A DNA stretch of 64,000 nucleotides, taken from assembly GCF_009858175.1 (NCBI RefSeq), contig NZ_CP047393.1:2728001-2792000 (forward strand), written 5' to 3'. This DNA comes from Pontibacillus sp. HMF3514 (GTDB lineage Bacteria > Bacillota > Bacilli > Bacillales > BH030062). The notes beneath the pieces were generated by a model. The model searched no databases. It worked only from the letters and a program-made list of their open reading frames with translations, and was not told the origin of the DNA. A program made the translations under genes and the position numbers. Shown piece after piece: positions 9,431 to 64,000 of this stretch. Within the stretch, counting starts at the first letter, position 1; each line of letters opens with the position of its first letter.

Positions 9431-9632
9431 CATGAATCAATCCCAATCGTGCCGTCATTCACCCAATGTTTTGAACCCGCTCTCGGCAGGTGGGTGCCCT
9501 GCTTTATATTTTGCAAGTCCTCTGAAGCAAATGAGGCTTGTGCGCCATATAAAAACTCAAGCTCCCGTATTCAAAAATGTTCGGTCAAAACGATTTGTCG
9601 GCTGACGAACACATCAGGATTGATTTCTTTAA
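9431..9632 (-). ncRNA. ssrS: 6S RNA (SsrS, BsrA type)
   Basis: Structured RNA of about 200 bases that mimics an open promoter and binds sigma-A RNA polymerase. On the minus strand it starts about AAATCAATCCTGATGTG and ends GGCACGATTGGGATTGATT; these pair as the closing stem. The inner part, TACGGGAGCTTGAG with ATATGGCGCACAAGCC, is the conserved core seen in Bacillus 6S RNA. Its place between aspS and tcdA/yrvM is that of B. subtilis bsrA. A -10-like TATACA lies just upstream (about 9640-9650). Ends are estimated from the closing stem. Confidence 0.88.
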
Positions 9633-12822: not shown

Positions 12823-13109
12823 ACTCCCGTCCCATATTCGATCATTGACCGAATAGGGACGGGAGTTGAATTCCCGCGTTGCCACCCTAGTTGAAGCAAA
12901 GGCTTCCGCTTAAACAGTTAACGCCTGCTACGTCCTACACCTACTAAGCTAAACTGTTCGATTAGGAACCTAAGGAATGTCTTTCATAAAGATACGCTGC
13001 AGAAATGCTTCCAGCCTGTGGCATTCCCTCTCTGGCCAAGTGATTCTTTATTACTCTTTCCCTCTTTGGTTCATATATGGATTTTCGATTCAAGATAGTT
13101 TATGAGTTG
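12823..13109 (-). promoter_or_regulatory. T-box riboswitch leader of hisS-aspS
   Basis: On the minus strand the T-box sequence AGGGTGGCAACGCGGG lies at 12873-12888. It is followed by a terminator, ACTCCCGTCCC against GGGACGGGAGT (12823-12866), and a run of T. Stem I is upstream: GAACC pairs with GGTTC, the AGUA-like motif AAGAGTA is on the 5' side, and AAGACATT is on the 3' side. The specifier reads GAC (Asp, 12979-12981). Uncharged tRNA would pair with the specifier and with the T-box bulge, blocking the terminator and switching on hisS and aspS. Confidence 0.93.
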
Positions 13110-31189: not shown

Positions 31190-31268
31190 CCCGTCCACAC
31201 GACGTGGTGGCGTTCGATGTTGCTACAGGATGTAACGCTCTTAGTCGAACATCCTTGTTTATTTTACA
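31190..31268 (-). repeat. 75-bp insert in hairpin A of composite repeat 2
   Basis: Extra sequence in the loop side of module A compared with the A modules at 15.4, 42.7 and 49.8 kb. Its reverse complement matches the insert at 31704-31781 over almost its full length (shared blocks TCGACTAA, ACATC.TGT.GCAAC.TCGA, CCACGTCGTGTGG). Function unknown. Confidence 0.75.
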
Positions 31269-31703: not shown

Positions 31704-31781
31704 TGAAAGTAAATAATGAAGATCGACTAAAACCGCCACATCGTGTGGCAACGTCGACCTACCCCACGTCGTGTGGGGCAG
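31704..31781 (+). repeat. 75-bp insert in hairpin B of composite repeat 2
   Basis: Inserted between the GAGGAGGCTG core and the 3' arm of module B; absent from the B modules at 15.7, 42.4 and 50.2 kb. It is an inverted relative of 31190-31268 and holds two small hairpins, CCACATCGTGTGG and CCCCACGTCGTGTGGGG. Confidence 0.75.
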
Positions 31782-46320: not shown

Positions 46321-46421
46321 ACTTGCACCTCCTTATAATACTCAGACTCGCCATGCAGGTGCCTCTCGGGCTTTTAGAACCTGTTTTGAGCGGTTGTAGC
46401 AACAGGTGCTACGATCGTTAA
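46321..46421 (-). promoter_or_regulatory. L21 (rplU) leader RNA, autoregulatory type
   Basis: About 100 bases of untranslated leader on the minus strand, with hairpin GTAGCACCTGTTGCTAC and a conserved block AAGCCCGAGAGGCACCTGCATGGCGAGTC. This resembles the L21 leader family known in Firmicutes, thought to bind L21 for feedback control. Identity was judged by eye. Confidence 0.65.
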
Positions 46422-57451: not shown

Positions 57452-57483
57452 AAACCTACCCTTTATGATATAAGGATAGGTTT
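57452..57483 (-). terminator. Intrinsic terminator of the type IV pilus operon
   Basis: Stem AAACCTACCCTTTAT against ATAAGGATAGGTTT with mismatches, followed on the minus strand by TTTTTTATTGG. It overlaps the last codon of the PilO-like gene. Between it and spoIIB (57291-57451) lie AT-rich bases, probably with the spoIIB promoter. Confidence 0.75.
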
Positions 57484-58675
57484 AGCGTGCTGGAAGCAAT
57501 ACAGCTTCCCCAGCATATACAGTTTCAGAGGATAGTCCATTCAAAGATTTCACGCGGTCAGCCAAGTCTTTACTGTATGTTCCGTAAAACTCTTTAATAA
57601 TACGGAAAAGTGTTTCATCCTCTTGGACCACATGCTTATGCAACTTTTTGTTACCCTCAACAGCAATGTTCTTCTCTGAAGGATCAATACCCTGCAGTAT
57701 TGGAAGCTTGATTTGACTTCCCTTGTTTACTTGATCTGTATTCATTCCATTAACCTGTTTTACCTGTTCAGCCATTGAGCGGTTATACGTACCATAGAAG
57801 GACTTAATGATACTGAAGAGAGTATCATCAGACTGAACTACATGTGTTTGAGTGATTTGAGAGACTTCCTCTTCCTCATCATCAGAAGTTTCTTCCTGTG
57901 ATTCAACCTCTTGTTCATCTTCTGTTTCTTGCTCTAACCCTGACTCATCATTCTCAGGTTCTTGATCTGTAACCACTGAGTCCTCTCGATCAAGTGGGTT
58001 ATCTTTATTTGAAGGAGACTCATAATGATACTGTGGCAATTCATCTTGTAAGTTTTCTAAAGTTGGATAATAATAAGCTGAAAATGTAACAAGGTGAGTT
58101 AAGCGCTCTCCTTCGTCTTGGTCTTCAAAGGTAATCGCATCGATACTGATCAGCCGTGATAAACGATTTAACTCTTGTAAAAAGGATAGCAAGTCAGGGA
58201 ATTCAGGTGAGATCACTTCTAGGTTAAAGGTTAATGCTCTCACTCCTGAAACCTTGGTTGTTTTTCCATCAGGTTGACCAGACTGTTCTTCCGTACCCTC
58301 ATTTGAAAGGTCTTCATTCTCTGTTAGTTCAGAATTCACACTTTCCTGTTGTTCCATCATGATGCTTTGAATAAAGCTATTTGAAAGGCTTTCTGCTTTG
58401 TCTAAAGAGATTAATACTTGGTCTTGTACAGGAAGAACCGGTAACTTTCGTTGCATTTCTCGTGATGATTGAAAAGAAATCTTTGTTTGATTTTCTTCTT
58501 TTGTACGAAGGGTTTGTAAAATCTTCTCTTCATTCTCTAAGCTCGATTCAAGTCTATCTAGCTCTTGATTAGCGGGTGATAAAAAGATGTCCTGTGCAAT
58601 TACAAATACACCAATACCTGCTACGATAACGAGTGTTAAAAGAATGTAGTGGAGGCGAGACCATTCAGCTTTCAT
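57482..58675 (-). CDS. PilO-like type IV pilus protein with two C-terminal LysM-type domains
   Basis: 397 residues. One membrane helix (about 9-31), coiled coil (34-62), then a PilO-like periplasmic-type domain (about 65-215: FNLEVISPEFPDLLSFLQELNRLSRL). A long acidic linker (about 225-285) leads to two LysM-like repeats, each THVVQSDDTLFSIIKSFYG / KHVVQEDETLFRIIKEFYG followed by LNG and a LP end. PilO works with PilN and PilM to align the pilus machine. LysM domains bind peptidoglycan, so this version could hold the complex to the thick wall. The gene overlaps pilN by 11 bases. The LysM fusion is an inference from sequence patterns and deserves checking. Confidence 0.82.
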   Translation of the reverse strand: MKAEWSRLHYILLTLVIVAGIGVFVIAQDIFLSPANQELDRLESSLENEEKILQTLRTKEENQTKISFQSSREMQRKLPVLPVQDQVLISLDKAESLSNSFIQSIMMEQQESVNSELTENEDLSNEGTEEQSGQPDGKTTKVSGVRALTFNLEVISPEFPDLLSFLQELNRLSRLISIDAITFEDQDEGERLTHLVTFSAYYYPTLENLQDELPQYHYESPSNKDNPLDREDSVVTDQEPENDESGLEQETEDEQEVESQEETSDDEEEEVSQITQTHVVQSDDTLFSIIKSFYGTYNRSMAEQVKQVNGMNTDQVNKGSQIKLPILQGIDPSEKNIAVEGNKKLHKHVVQEDETLFRIIKEFYGTYSKDLADRVKSLNGLSSETVYAGEAVLLPAR

Positions 58676-59255
58676 CCTGATCTACCTCCTCTTTCCATTG
58701 TGCTTCATCAATATCAACCTCGTAATTGGCTATATAGCGAGGTCGATATTCCAATGGATCATACTGTTCACTTATTTGTTCTGTAGTGATATTACTCAAT
58801 TCGACGTTACTTATCGCTTCTTCTTGCAACAACGTATTCGTATAAGCTGCAACCTCTTGCAAACTATCAAAACGAACAATAAGCTGTAAGTTATTATCTT
58901 TTGTATATATGTAGCGTTCAAAATACCCACGCTCAGGTAACAGTGAGATCATCCGTTCTAATAATGAAACGGAAGGAAAGATGGACTCTTCCACTTGATC
59001 TACTGCTTGTTGAAGCTGTCTTCGATCCGCTTGTGTTTCATCTCGTAGAATATTTTTATATCCCTCTTGCTCTTTTTGAATACTTTGGATTTCCCGTTGA
59101 AAATCTTCCTGTTTTGCCTCAATTGCTTGTTTTTGCAGTCCGATCGCAATCATTGTCGCCAAAAGTAAAAATATGCCAACAAAAGCGATCATAAAGGGGA
59201 CGATGTTTCGTTTCTCTTTTTCTTCAAGTAGATTAATTTCTACAATCATCGTCAT
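58665..59255 (-). CDS. pilN: Type IV pilus assembly protein PilN
   Basis: 196 residues. Short cytoplasmic N-terminus with EINLLEEKEKRN (the INLL motif that binds PilM), one membrane helix (about 19-39), a coiled coil (45-90) and a ferredoxin-like domain with RYIYTKDNNLQLIVRF. AAAGGGGTG precedes the ATG. Between pilM and the PilO-like gene, with close spacing. Confidence 0.88.
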   Translation of the reverse strand: MTMIVEINLLEEKEKRNIVPFMIAFVGIFLLLATMIAIGLQKQAIEAKQEDFQREIQSIQKEQEGYKNILRDETQADRRQLQQAVDQVEESIFPSVSLLERMISLLPERGYFERYIYTKDNNLQLIVRFDSLQEVAAYTNTLLQEEAISNVELSNITTEQISEQYDPLEYRPRYIANYEVDIDEAQWKEEVDQDES

Positions 59256-59275: not shown

Positions 59276-60253
59276 CTATGCTTTAATAGAAAGTCCATAT
59301 ACATCTGCAAATCGTGGTGGTAAAGAAGCCAGCTCTTGTCCGTGTGTAGGTTGTAGATCAAGCCACTCTACAGGGATATCAAACCTCTCTTTGCAGTGCT
59401 CATATAACTCTTCCATATTGGGCCAGTCACCAGATAATAATATATTGGTCACATTTGCTTCACCTTTTGTAACAGAAAAACGATAAAAGCTCATTATGCG
59501 TTCTACTTCACGTAACTGATCCTTTTCATAGCCTTCTAATGTGCTTTTCTCATCCGTCCAGACTAGACCCGCATCTCCTTCTTCATCCTCTTGCCAAAAC
59601 TCACCGTCCAAACTTGTTCTCATATAGCGAATAAATTGCGGACGACACTCATGAAATACCGTCAATACAATCGAGTCGACATTCCATTGAAGTGAAAGCA
59701 AATGATCCTTCTGTTTTGCCTTATCAAGAGAATAATAGAGTCGATACAACGATAAAGCTGATAAATCTGCTACCATTGGCTTTAAATCCGAATCCTTAAA
59801 AACCTCTTCAAACGTCCGAATTCGGTCTTCTGGATAGGCAAACATGAGAATCTCCTGTTGCCCTTCCTTTTCACCTAACAATTTATAATCAAAAACAGGT
59901 CGTTCGAATGGGAGATGGATTTGATCACCAAGTTGCATATATAAATACCCTTTAATCTCTTCTTCTGCTAAATCTAGTGAAACGAGTTGAGGACGAATAA
60001 CAACAGAGGCATCAGGTACACAAAAATAGAGTTTCTTCCCCTTCCAACGTCTAACACGCACAAGCTCATCTAAAATAAGCTCGAGCGTAGTTGGGTCCTT
60101 CACTTTCCCCTCTTCAATCACGCCTAAAGGAAGATACTTTTCCCCAAAGTTCGTAACGCCTTGTAAGCCGGCTGAATCACTTTCCATATAACGAATCACA
60201 TGGTCTTTTAATACGATATTCACGCGTTTCTTTGATTTATGTAATCCAAACAA
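59276..60253 (-). CDS. pilM: Type IV pilus assembly protein PilM
   Basis: 325 residues, actin/FtsA-like. Opens MFGLHKSKKRVNIVLKD, with FCVPDASVVIRPQLVSL (near 90-106) and YLYMQLGDQIHLPFERPVFDY. It is the cytoplasmic ATP-binding partner of PilN. The C-terminus is more divergent than usual, so the ATP site is not fully visible. TTG start with AAGGTAGGG upstream. Confidence 0.85.
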   Translation of the reverse strand: MFGLHKSKKRVNIVLKDHVIRYMESDSAGLQGVTNFGEKYLPLGVIEEGKVKDPTTLELILDELVRVRRWKGKKLYFCVPDASVVIRPQLVSLDLAEEEIKGYLYMQLGDQIHLPFERPVFDYKLLGEKEGQQEILMFAYPEDRIRTFEEVFKDSDLKPMVADLSALSLYRLYYSLDKAKQKDHLLSLQWNVDSIVLTVFHECRPQFIRYMRTSLDGEFWQEDEEGDAGLVWTDEKSTLEGYEKDQLREVERIMSFYRFSVTKGEANVTNILLSGDWPNMEELYEHCKERFDIPVEWLDLQPTHGQELASLPPRFADVYGLSIKA

Positions 60254-60267
60254 GTAGGATCCCTACC

Positions 60268-61011
60268 TTACCATAACGTGTCGACATACCACTTTACTAT
60301 AGAATCGGCAAAAAAATACGCCGTTAAAGCCCCAAGTATAATATAAGGACCAAATGGAATCGGCTGCTTTCGATCAATCTTCTTCAACAAAAGCAATCCT
60401 CCACTTATGACCGTACCATAGAGTGTTGCAAAAAAGAAAGCGAGATATGTGTCCTGAAGTCCTAAAACAATGCCAATAACCCCCATTAACTTCATATCTC
60501 CGGCCCCCATACCACCTCGACTGAGGATGATGATAAGAGCTAATGTGAATAACCCAGCCAAACCGCCTATATAAGAATCCCACCAAGGTTCTAGTGGGTG
60601 AATGATTCTTAAAATAACGAAAATCGGTAAGAAGAAAAAAAGCAGCTTATCGGGTATGAGCATATAGGTGATGTCTGTGACAAACACGATCATGAGCATG
60701 GAAATAAAAATGATAGAGATGAACAGTTCAATATGTAATCCAAAAACAAGGTAACTGTGAGCAAATAAAACTCCTGTAGTTAATTCTACGATCGGATAAA
60801 TCGGTGATATTTTGGTCCTACACCTTCGACATTTTCCGCGTAAAAAAAGGTAAGAAAAAACGGGAACTAAATCCCGCCAAGTTAATGTATATTCGCATGT
60901 TGGACATTGTGAACGTGAATGGACGAACGATTGCTTGAGTGGCAATCTAAGTCCGACTACGTTGAAGAAGGAGCCGAATGTTAGGCCTATTAATGTTAAT
61001 GAAAATATCAT
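60268..61011 (-). CDS. pilD: Prepilin peptidase (PilD/ComC type)
   Basis: 247 residues, about seven membrane helices. Zinc-ribbon loop CPTC and CRRC (near 38-73) and catalytic aspartates in VTDITYMLIPDK (near 113-124) and GMGAGDMKLMG (near 166-176) are all present. It cuts the leader of PilA and may methylate it. In B. subtilis the single comC gene sits beside maf/spoIIB, as here; this enzyme may also serve competence pseudopilins (ComGC). Confidence 0.93.
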   Translation of the reverse strand: MIFSLTLIGLTFGSFFNVVGLRLPLKQSFVHSRSQCPTCEYTLTWRDLVPVFSYLFLRGKCRRCRTKISPIYPIVELTTGVLFAHSYLVFGLHIELFISIIFISMLMIVFVTDITYMLIPDKLLFFFLPIFVILRIIHPLEPWWDSYIGGLAGLFTLALIIILSRGGMGAGDMKLMGVIGIVLGLQDTYLAFFFATLYGTVISGGLLLLKKIDRKQPIPFGPYIILGALTAYFFADSIVKWYVDTLW

Positions 61012-61469: not shown

Positions 61470-61507
61470 ATGTGTCTCCCCTTTTTTGATAAAAAAAGTT
61501 TTTAAAA

Positions 61508-61620
61508 AACCGACCTAACCATAAAAGTACATACTTTGATGATTGGCCGGTTGCACTAATCGCTCCTGGTCCTCTAAGTGCCCACATACAGACGACCGTT
61601 CAACGCTTCCTTCGACATAA
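61508..61620 (-). promoter_or_regulatory. Candidate cyclic-di-GMP-II riboswitch with overlapping terminator
   Basis: On the minus strand the leader of pilA contains GTCGAAGGAAGCG, then GTGGGCACTTAGAGG, a variable hairpin, and TTAGTGCAACCGGCC. The blocks GGGCACUU and AGUGCAACCG are the conserved joining regions of the cyclic-di-GMP-II aptamer. The last block is also the 5' arm of a terminator: AACCGGCCAATCAT against ATGGTTAGGTCGGTT (61508-61552), followed by TTTTTT. Ligand binding would hold AACCGG in the aptamer and stop terminator formation. The family match is by eye. Confidence 0.8.
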
Positions 61621-61644
61621 ATCTGAATCTATTTTTCTACTACC

Positions 61645-61650
61645 ATTATA
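61645..61650 (-). promoter_or_regulatory. -10 element of pilA promoter
   Basis: TATAAT read on the minus strand, about 25 bases ahead of the riboswitch aptamer. No good -35 is seen at 17 bases, so it may need an activator or another sigma factor. Confidence 0.4.
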
Positions 61651-61700
61651 TTAGATACCTTCCAATTTTACCACATCAAACCTTACATTTTTATGAATTG

Positions 61701-62909: not shown

Positions 62910-63950
62910 TTACGTCTCCCTCTCTGTTAAATAAGGAGTAGCTACTTCTGAGGAGATAACGCCTTCCTCCAAAAGTGACTTGATTGACATTTCTAATGTG
63001 TGCATTCCTTGAGCTTTAGATGTTTGCATTACGTTAGGAATTTGATGAATTTTTTCATTACGGATTAAGTTTTTCACCGCTGAAGTGTTCATCAAGATTT
63101 CTGTTGCCGCCCGTCTTCCTTTTCGATCTTTTGTCTGGAACAAACGTTGAGACACAATCGCTTGTAAGACATTAGCAAGCTGAATCCGAATTTGATCCTG
63201 CTGACTAGGCGGGAACACATCAATAATACGGTCAATGGTTGAAGCTGCATTTGTTGTATGTAAAGTACCTAACACCAAGTGACCCGTTTCAGCAGCTGTA
63301 ATAGCTGTTGATATGGTTTCTAAATCTCTCATCTCGCCTACAAGAATGACATCAGGATCCTGTCGTAAGCAGGCACGTAAGCCATTGCTGAAGTTTTGTG
63401 TATCAAACCCTACTTCACGTTGATCGATGATGCAATATCGGTGTGAATGTAAATACTCAATTGGGTCTTCGAGTGTAATAATATGTCTTCTCATTGATTG
63501 ATTCATATAATCAATCATGGATGCTAGCGATGTCGATTTACCGCTTCCTGTTGGACCTGTTACGAGTACTAACCCCTGAGGCTTTTCAGCAATCTCTCTT
63601 AGAGCACCTGGCATTTTTAACGTGTCCAAGGAAGGTATTTCTGTTGGTACTACACGCACTGCCATCGATATACAGTTCCGTTGATGATAAGCATTAATAC
63701 GAAAACGAGAGAGTCCAGGGATACCATATGAAAAGTCGATTTCCCCTTTTTCCTCGAATTGTTTCCATAGAGATTCTGATAAAATGGCTTTTGCCATCTC
63801 TTTTGTTTCATCTGGTTTCAATGTGTCTTTCCCGTACTGCTTCAAATCACCATGCAAGCGAAAAATAGGTGGTACTCCGACTGTTAAATGGATATCTGAT
63901 GCTTCTAATTCAAAAGCTGCTTTTAATAACGTATCGAACCGTTCTTTCAT
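62910..63950 (-). CDS. pilT: Pilus retraction ATPase PilT
   Basis: 346 residues. Walker A TGPTGSGKST near 131-140, Asp box ITLEDPIEYLH, Walker B ILVGEMRDLET, and His box TGHLVLGTLHTTNAAS. The N-terminal PAS-like domain carries ASDIHLTVGVPP. It disassembles pili and powers twitching. The ATG at 63950 has GGGGGATCGAGG upstream; a longer frame overlaps the pilB end. Retraction is unusual for simple competence systems, so this is a true type IV pilus set. Confidence 0.96.
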   Translation of the reverse strand: MKERFDTLLKAAFELEASDIHLTVGVPPIFRLHGDLKQYGKDTLKPDETKEMAKAILSESLWKQFEEKGEIDFSYGIPGLSRFRINAYHQRNCISMAVRVVPTEIPSLDTLKMPGALREIAEKPQGLVLVTGPTGSGKSTSLASMIDYMNQSMRRHIITLEDPIEYLHSHRYCIIDQREVGFDTQNFSNGLRACLRQDPDVILVGEMRDLETISTAITAAETGHLVLGTLHTTNAASTIDRIIDVFPPSQQDQIRIQLANVLQAIVSQRLFQTKDRKGRRAATEILMNTSAVKNLIRNEKIHQIPNVMQTSKAQGMHTLEMSIKSLLEEGVISSEVATPYLTERET

Positions 63951-63963
63951 GCCTCGATCCCCC

Positions 63964-64000
63964 TTATTCATCCATTGCCACACGTAGGACTTCTTCTGTT
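63964..64000 (-). CDS. pilB: C-terminal end of pilus extension ATPase PilB, cut by window edge
   Basis: Only the last eleven codons are inside the window: TEEVLRVAMDE then stop. TxEEVLRV is the conserved end of the GspE/PilB ATPase family. It directly precedes pilT by 13 bases in the same direction, so it is the expected first part of the pilB-pilT-pilC operon. Confidence 0.8.
   Translation of the reverse strand, partial: TEEVLRVAMDE

Follow-up and report, generated by a model that had tools for sequence, protein, structure and literature searches.

The question raised by this locus is whether the leader between the platform-protein gene pilC and the pilin gene pilA of Pontibacillus sp. HMF3514 carries a riboswitch of the cyclic-di-GMP-II class and, if it does, in which direction and over which genes the switch would act. 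The window, that is, the whole 64,000-nucleotide stretch of DNA analysed here, had been read in a first-pass annotation as coming from a member of the Bacillaceae, with such a switch in the leader of pilA. The host is indeed a Pontibacillus, and the PilC of the window shares 98% identity with the P. marinus protein and 73% with those of P. salipaludis and P. chungwhensis. Relatives of PilC are also found in Marinilactibacillus piezotolerans (L199, 50% identity) and Enterococcus aquimarinus (L204, 49%). The founding paper on the class II riboswitches is said to be that of Lee and colleagues from 2010.

The comparison of the window with all Rfam models (cmscan) gives a full-length match to RF01786, the cyclic-di-GMP-II family, at 61618–61536 on the minus strand (61.3 bits, E 3.2e-11, model positions 1–84 of 84), the curated gathering score being 53.5 bits. 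The check with the covariance model that had been proposed for the region was thus run on the whole window, and the full-length match bears out the assignment to this class. RF01786 appears once among the matches listed for the window; elsewhere in the whole genome there is one further match, which at 49.0 bits lies below the cut-off, and no RF01786 match was obtained in 14 control genomes. The core blocks of the family, GGGCAC(U)U and GUGCAACCG, are both found in the aptamer. The two blocks that the first-pass annotation had quoted exist on the minus strand, where they were located in the sequence and characterized by a pairing count over relatives: GGGCACUU at 61583–61576 is the 5′ strand of the pseudoknot, while AGUGCAACC at 61557–61549 comprises its 3′ strand and the conserved core. 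The Rfam matches of the window also include a 6S RNA (9436–9623), a T-box leader (12852–13075), and an L21 leader (46334–46405), all on the minus strand, as well as two Bacillaceae-1 RNA matches at 31194–31260 (minus) and 31711–31777 (plus), about 450 nt apart, each of which adjoins a longer sequence that is apparently repeated in inverted orientation.

Folding places an intrinsic terminator hairpin with a U-run at 61552–61504 on the minus strand, the 5′ arm of which begins at AACCGGCC of the aptamer. In this hairpin, AACCGGCC pairs with GGUCGGUU, an inner stem is formed in addition, and six U follow. The hairpin alone has an energy of −19.8 kcal/mol. The stability of the 155-nt leader, on the other hand, is not unusual compared to shuffles (z −1.40, matched by 16 of the 200), the energy being non-discriminating, and a simple pattern scan for terminators does not have the 61552–61504 hairpin among its sites. 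Because the 5′ arm of the terminator is the aptamer's own 3′ core, the folded aptamer and the terminator are mutually exclusive. An aptamer held by its ligand should block termination, and an ON switch is therefore predicted.

The proposed sequence of events is as follows. The RNA polymerase would start between pilC and the aptamer, or read through from pilC, and the aptamer would be made first. With c-di-GMP bound, as predicted for this aptamer, AACCGGCC would be tied up in the folded core and in P1, leaving the 5′ arm of the terminator unavailable, and the polymerase would proceed into pilA, pilD, pilM, pilN, and pilO. In the ligand-free state, the pairing of AACCGGCC with GGUCGGUU would form the terminator, and transcription would halt before pilA. 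We have also considered the opposite direction, in which the ligand promotes termination, as in most class I switches of Clostridioides difficile. The class alone does not fix the direction, the class I switch Bc2 of Bacillus thuringiensis being an ON switch according to PMC6366702. However, an OFF switch is very improbable here, since the aptamer core and the 5′ arm of the terminator are one and the same segment, so that the two structures exclude each other, and no separate antiterminator is seen. It is, by contrast, very likely that the element is a cyclic-di-GMP-II riboswitch acting as a transcriptional ON switch before pilA.

The recurrence of the element was followed in a survey sample of 299 genomes from the window's order, with the families numbered. 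RF01786 gives 147 matches in 111 of these genomes, 103 of which have one above the cut-off, under stricter filters, by which weak matches may have been lost. The DNA around 146 of the 147 copies was analysed, G238 being left out. The neighbouring genes were recognized with phmmer, using the Pil proteins of the window as queries at E 1e-3, a search in which distant pilins may be missed. With this procedure, 49 of the 146 copies lie between pilC and pilA, spread over 48 of the 299 genomes and 17 families. The other copies precede a pilin gene with no pilC found upstream (4), precede pilD (3, two of them with pilC upstream), or are located elsewhere (90). Tandem c-di-GMP-II aptamers occur before other genes in L075, L104, L124, L126, and L132 (G137, G078, G013, G206, and G042, respectively); four of these five precede proteins with secretion-signal-like starts, and several of the aptamers have a GGACAC...GUGUAACC variant of the pseudoknot.

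PilT, recognized by TIGR01420, is present in 204 of the 299 genomes, and 47 of these 204 have the switch at the pilC–pilA position. In G019, the 48th genome with the switch there, PilT gives no match at 1e-60. The pilC–pilA switch is widespread yet, as the 47 of 204 show, patchy in its distribution. PF11104 (PilM) was tried as the marker of the pilus cluster and rejected in favour of TIGR01420, as it matched 295 of the 299 genomes, apparently including other proteins with the ATPase fold. Replacement of class II by class I was looked for in 20 of the 157 genomes that have PilT and lack a class II switch between pilC and pilA, and the approximately 3 kb after pilT contained no Rfam match at the gathering score in these 20 genomes. 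The scanned stretches have a pilC match in all 20 cases and a pilin match in 19 (all except L168).

At the four positions of the pseudoknot, 558 of 564 cells are paired across 141 of the 146 aptamers, in a count where the strands were chosen by sequence pattern, which favours well-formed copies, and where five rows were dropped. Four main pair sets are found, namely GCAC/GUGC (81), GCGC/GCGC (36), ACAC/GUGU (14), and GCAU/AUGC (4). Judged from these pair sets, the pseudoknot is maintained through compensatory changes. The copy of the window is somewhat degenerate in the Rfam alignment: the GG/CC of P1 beside the core pairs, several non-pairs are marked in the remainder of this helix, and further ones are found elsewhere. 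In addition, AUU is present near the core blocks, where 115 of the 146 copies have AGU and 8 have ATTA, and the score is lower than those of many relatives, which reach up to 84.5 bits.

These features could be taken to indicate an aptamer that has weakened or decayed while remaining recognizable, followed by a terminator that is nearly always active and merely insulates pilC from pilA. The weak P1 and the mismatched stem, the AUU in place of AGU, and the modest score all fit such a reading. We nevertheless consider it unlikely, because the core and its overlap with the terminator are common to the window and two aptamers of the genus-level group (the P. marinus contig and G003), neither the pseudoknot blocks nor CAACCG vary among the six genomes of the same family that have the switch, and the reading frames of PilA, PilD, and PilM are intact. 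Compared to the other pilC–pilA copies (49 copies, 48 genomes), the window shares the place and the gene order, and the overlapping terminator is mostly shared as well; it differs in its AUU variant and in scoring lower than many of them.

The overlap seen in the window recurs in the homologous leaders. A stem that begins in the 3′ core of the aptamer and ends before a T-run is found in 36 of the 49 pilC–pilA leaders, where 2.1 are expected, and in 46 of the 97 other c-di-GMP-II copies, where 3.6 are expected, the expectation being the mean of 10 dinucleotide shuffles of the 200 nt after the aptamer. A separate folding search finds a terminator in 42 of the 49 leaders, with the 5′ arm starting from the CAACC core in 34 of the 49. 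The variable position of the core can be read in 29 of the 36 stems, where it is A–U in 6, G–C in 14, and G–U in 9 (aptamer base first); the other 7 stems do not span it. The claim of the first-pass annotation that the 3′ part of the aptamer is shared with the terminator, from which it had predicted an ON switch, is thus supported both by the fold of the window and by the 36 similar leaders.

A strong overlapping terminator is absent from 13 of the 49 pilC–pilA leaders, and the mechanism is therefore not uniform. Some relatives have a ribosome-binding site near the aptamer and no overlapping terminator. One of them is G042, whose switch, with the ribosome site close behind the aptamer, may act at the level of translation. 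A switch of this kind, which would sequester the ribosome-binding site instead of controlling termination, is hardly to be expected in the window. Here, the Shine–Dalgarno-like AAGGGGAG before pilA, read from the sequence at 61483–61476 on the minus strand, lies outside the terminator hairpin, which itself is followed by U6.

The next issue is where the transcript controlled by the switch would begin. The open reading frames confirm the place given in the first-pass annotation, with the switch between pilC (62909–61701) and pilA (61469–61047). Upstream of the aptamer, a candidate promoter, TGGTAA-17-TATAAT, can be read at 61673–61645 on the minus strand. Its −35 element is weak, with 3 of 6 matches, and the site is not listed by a consensus promoter scan. 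The TATAAT element recurs in the relatives: 33 of the 49 pilC–pilA copies have an exact TATAAT in the 60 nt before the aptamer, compared to 6.1 expected from mononucleotide shuffles, and promoter-like pairs scoring at least 10 are found in 19 of the 49 copies, compared to 3.0 expected. The conservation of this promoter-like element, immediately before the aptamer, points to a transcription unit that begins with the switch; transcripts reading through from pilC would also meet the terminator. The switch thus probably has a promoter of its own, at which the pilA–pilO unit would start. In this respect, our reading differs from the first-pass annotation, which had the switch inside the operon.

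On the minus strand, the order of the genes is pilB, pilT, pilC, the switch, pilA, pilD, pilM, probable pilN, and probable pilO. The gene for PilB, which has an MshEN domain, lies beyond the window (L026 8965–10590, minus strand). The upstream half within the window consists of pilT (62910–63983), encoding a retraction ATPase of 357 aa (PF00437, 1.8e-50; TIGR01420, 2.2e-145), and pilC, encoding a platform protein of 402 aa (PF00482, 6.5e-66), which is the upstream neighbour of the switch. Downstream of the switch, pilA encodes a type IV pilin of 140 aa (PF07963 N_methyl, 3.3e-9), pilD (60268–61011) a prepilin peptidase of 247 aa (PF06750, 6.4e-33; PF01478, 5.2e-18), and pilM (59276–60253) a protein of 325 aa (PF11104, 6.8e-11). 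The probable pilN (58665–59255, 196 aa) has no Pfam match and is named from its position after pilM, and the probable pilO-like gene (57482–58675, 397 aa), with a LysM domain (PF01476, 1.3e-8), is likewise named from its position. All of these genes were identified as open reading frames on the minus strand.

The first-pass annotation had expected the switch to raise pilin alone, which does not agree with this arrangement, as pilD to pilO follow closely on the same strand. The gaps amount to 35 nt between pilA and pilD, 14 nt between pilD and pilM, and 20 nt between pilM and pilN, while pilN and pilO overlap, and the pattern scan lists no terminator-like site between pilA and pilD. From the short gaps and the lack of a listed site, it follows that pilA and the later genes should rise together, and the switch is expected to act on pilA-pilD-pilM-pilN-pilO as a whole. 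In the cluster of L068 (G049), pilA and pilD are each preceded by a c-di-GMP-II switch, suggesting that pilD and the later genes are also under c-di-GMP control there.

The class II switches are described as transcriptional ON switches, and the control of C. difficile pilA1 is established, in PMC11477304, PMC6200980, and PMC6366702. The parallel with pilA1 drawn in the first-pass annotation is in agreement with the latter two. According to these three sources, the C. difficile switch Cdi-2-4 resembles that of the window in its class, its location directly before the major pilin gene, and its ON logic with a terminator. Cdi-2-4, as described in PMC6366702, stands at the start of the pilA1 transcript, and some transcription continues from there into the pilB operon downstream. 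In the window, by contrast, pilB, pilT, and pilC are upstream, and the switch is located inside the cluster, where it would govern pilA-pilD-pilM-pilN-pilO from its probable own promoter. The B. thuringiensis switches Bc1 and Bc2 are similar as c-di-GMP switches of Bacillaceae acting on surface or motility genes (PMC11218506 and PMC4933901), but they belong to class I, have a different fold, and do not precede a pilin gene. In Paenibacillus thiaminolyticus, PMC9765702 points to MshEN in PilB and expects c-di-GMP control, and the word riboswitch occurs in that text once only, in the reference list. A literature search, conducted mostly at the level of titles and with subscription papers outside it, yielded no publication on a c-di-GMP-II switch at the pilC–pilA position in Bacillales. 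The assignment of the switch is well supported, and its conserved pilC–pilA arrangement is apparently undescribed, the class itself and its control of pilA being already known from C. difficile.

The genome contains further elements of a c-di-GMP circuit. With nine GGDEF matches above the cut-off, c-di-GMP can be made in this genome. The second c-di-GMP-II match, that of 49.0 bits, lies outside the window, at L027 5786–5866 on the plus strand (genome C1:3783785–3783865), and its 3′ core also forms an arm of a terminator, ACCACAUUGA with UCAAUGUGGU, plus a U-run. The gene next after it encodes an EAL protein (PF00563, 3.3e-45), relatives of which follow class II copies in 20 genomes, strongly in 16, among the 146 copies. 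Class II switches are present in six of the nine genomes of the family, always as a pair that precedes pilA and the EAL gene, respectively. The location before the EAL gene suggests negative feedback on c-di-GMP, with the EAL protein presumed to be an active phosphodiesterase. There are also five class I switches above the cut-off in the genome. One of them, at L014 1501–1584 (genome C1:1010602–1010685, plus strand), is located 90 nt before a GGDEF gene; here too, a switch precedes the gene of a c-di-GMP enzyme.

The PilB protein may respond to the same signal. Its MshEN domain is recognized by Pfam (1.2e-21, residues 58–144) and matches the MshE structure 5htl (1.2e-21). The two c-di-GMP motifs, at residues 6–29 and 34–57 and separated by a spacer of 4, show 4 and 2 departures, respectively, from the consensus given in PMC5013675. 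The MshEN domain of PilB is a possible second layer of c-di-GMP control on the pilus. A diguanylate cyclase gene was also considered as a conserved neighbour of the cluster, given the GGDEF gene nearby in the window's genome (L026 15738–16979), and was rejected: none is found in the 18-kb stretches of five relatives, which have a shorter reach than that of the window's genome.

On this basis, we propose a self-limiting c-di-GMP wiring for Pontibacillus and its family, with class II ON switches before the pilin half of the cluster and before the EAL gene, and with the MshEN domain of PilB maybe sensing the ligand. The proposal is a tentative one, and we consider it somewhat more likely to fail than to hold. 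If it is true, a high level of c-di-GMP would lead to piliation in a pulse or at a set level, but not to a lasting state. Judging by sequence, the control of pilin by class II c-di-GMP switches is no speciality of Clostridioides and, in this order, occupies a constant position between pilC and pilA. The c-di-GMP control of pili thereby becomes testable in harmless halophilic Bacillaceae.
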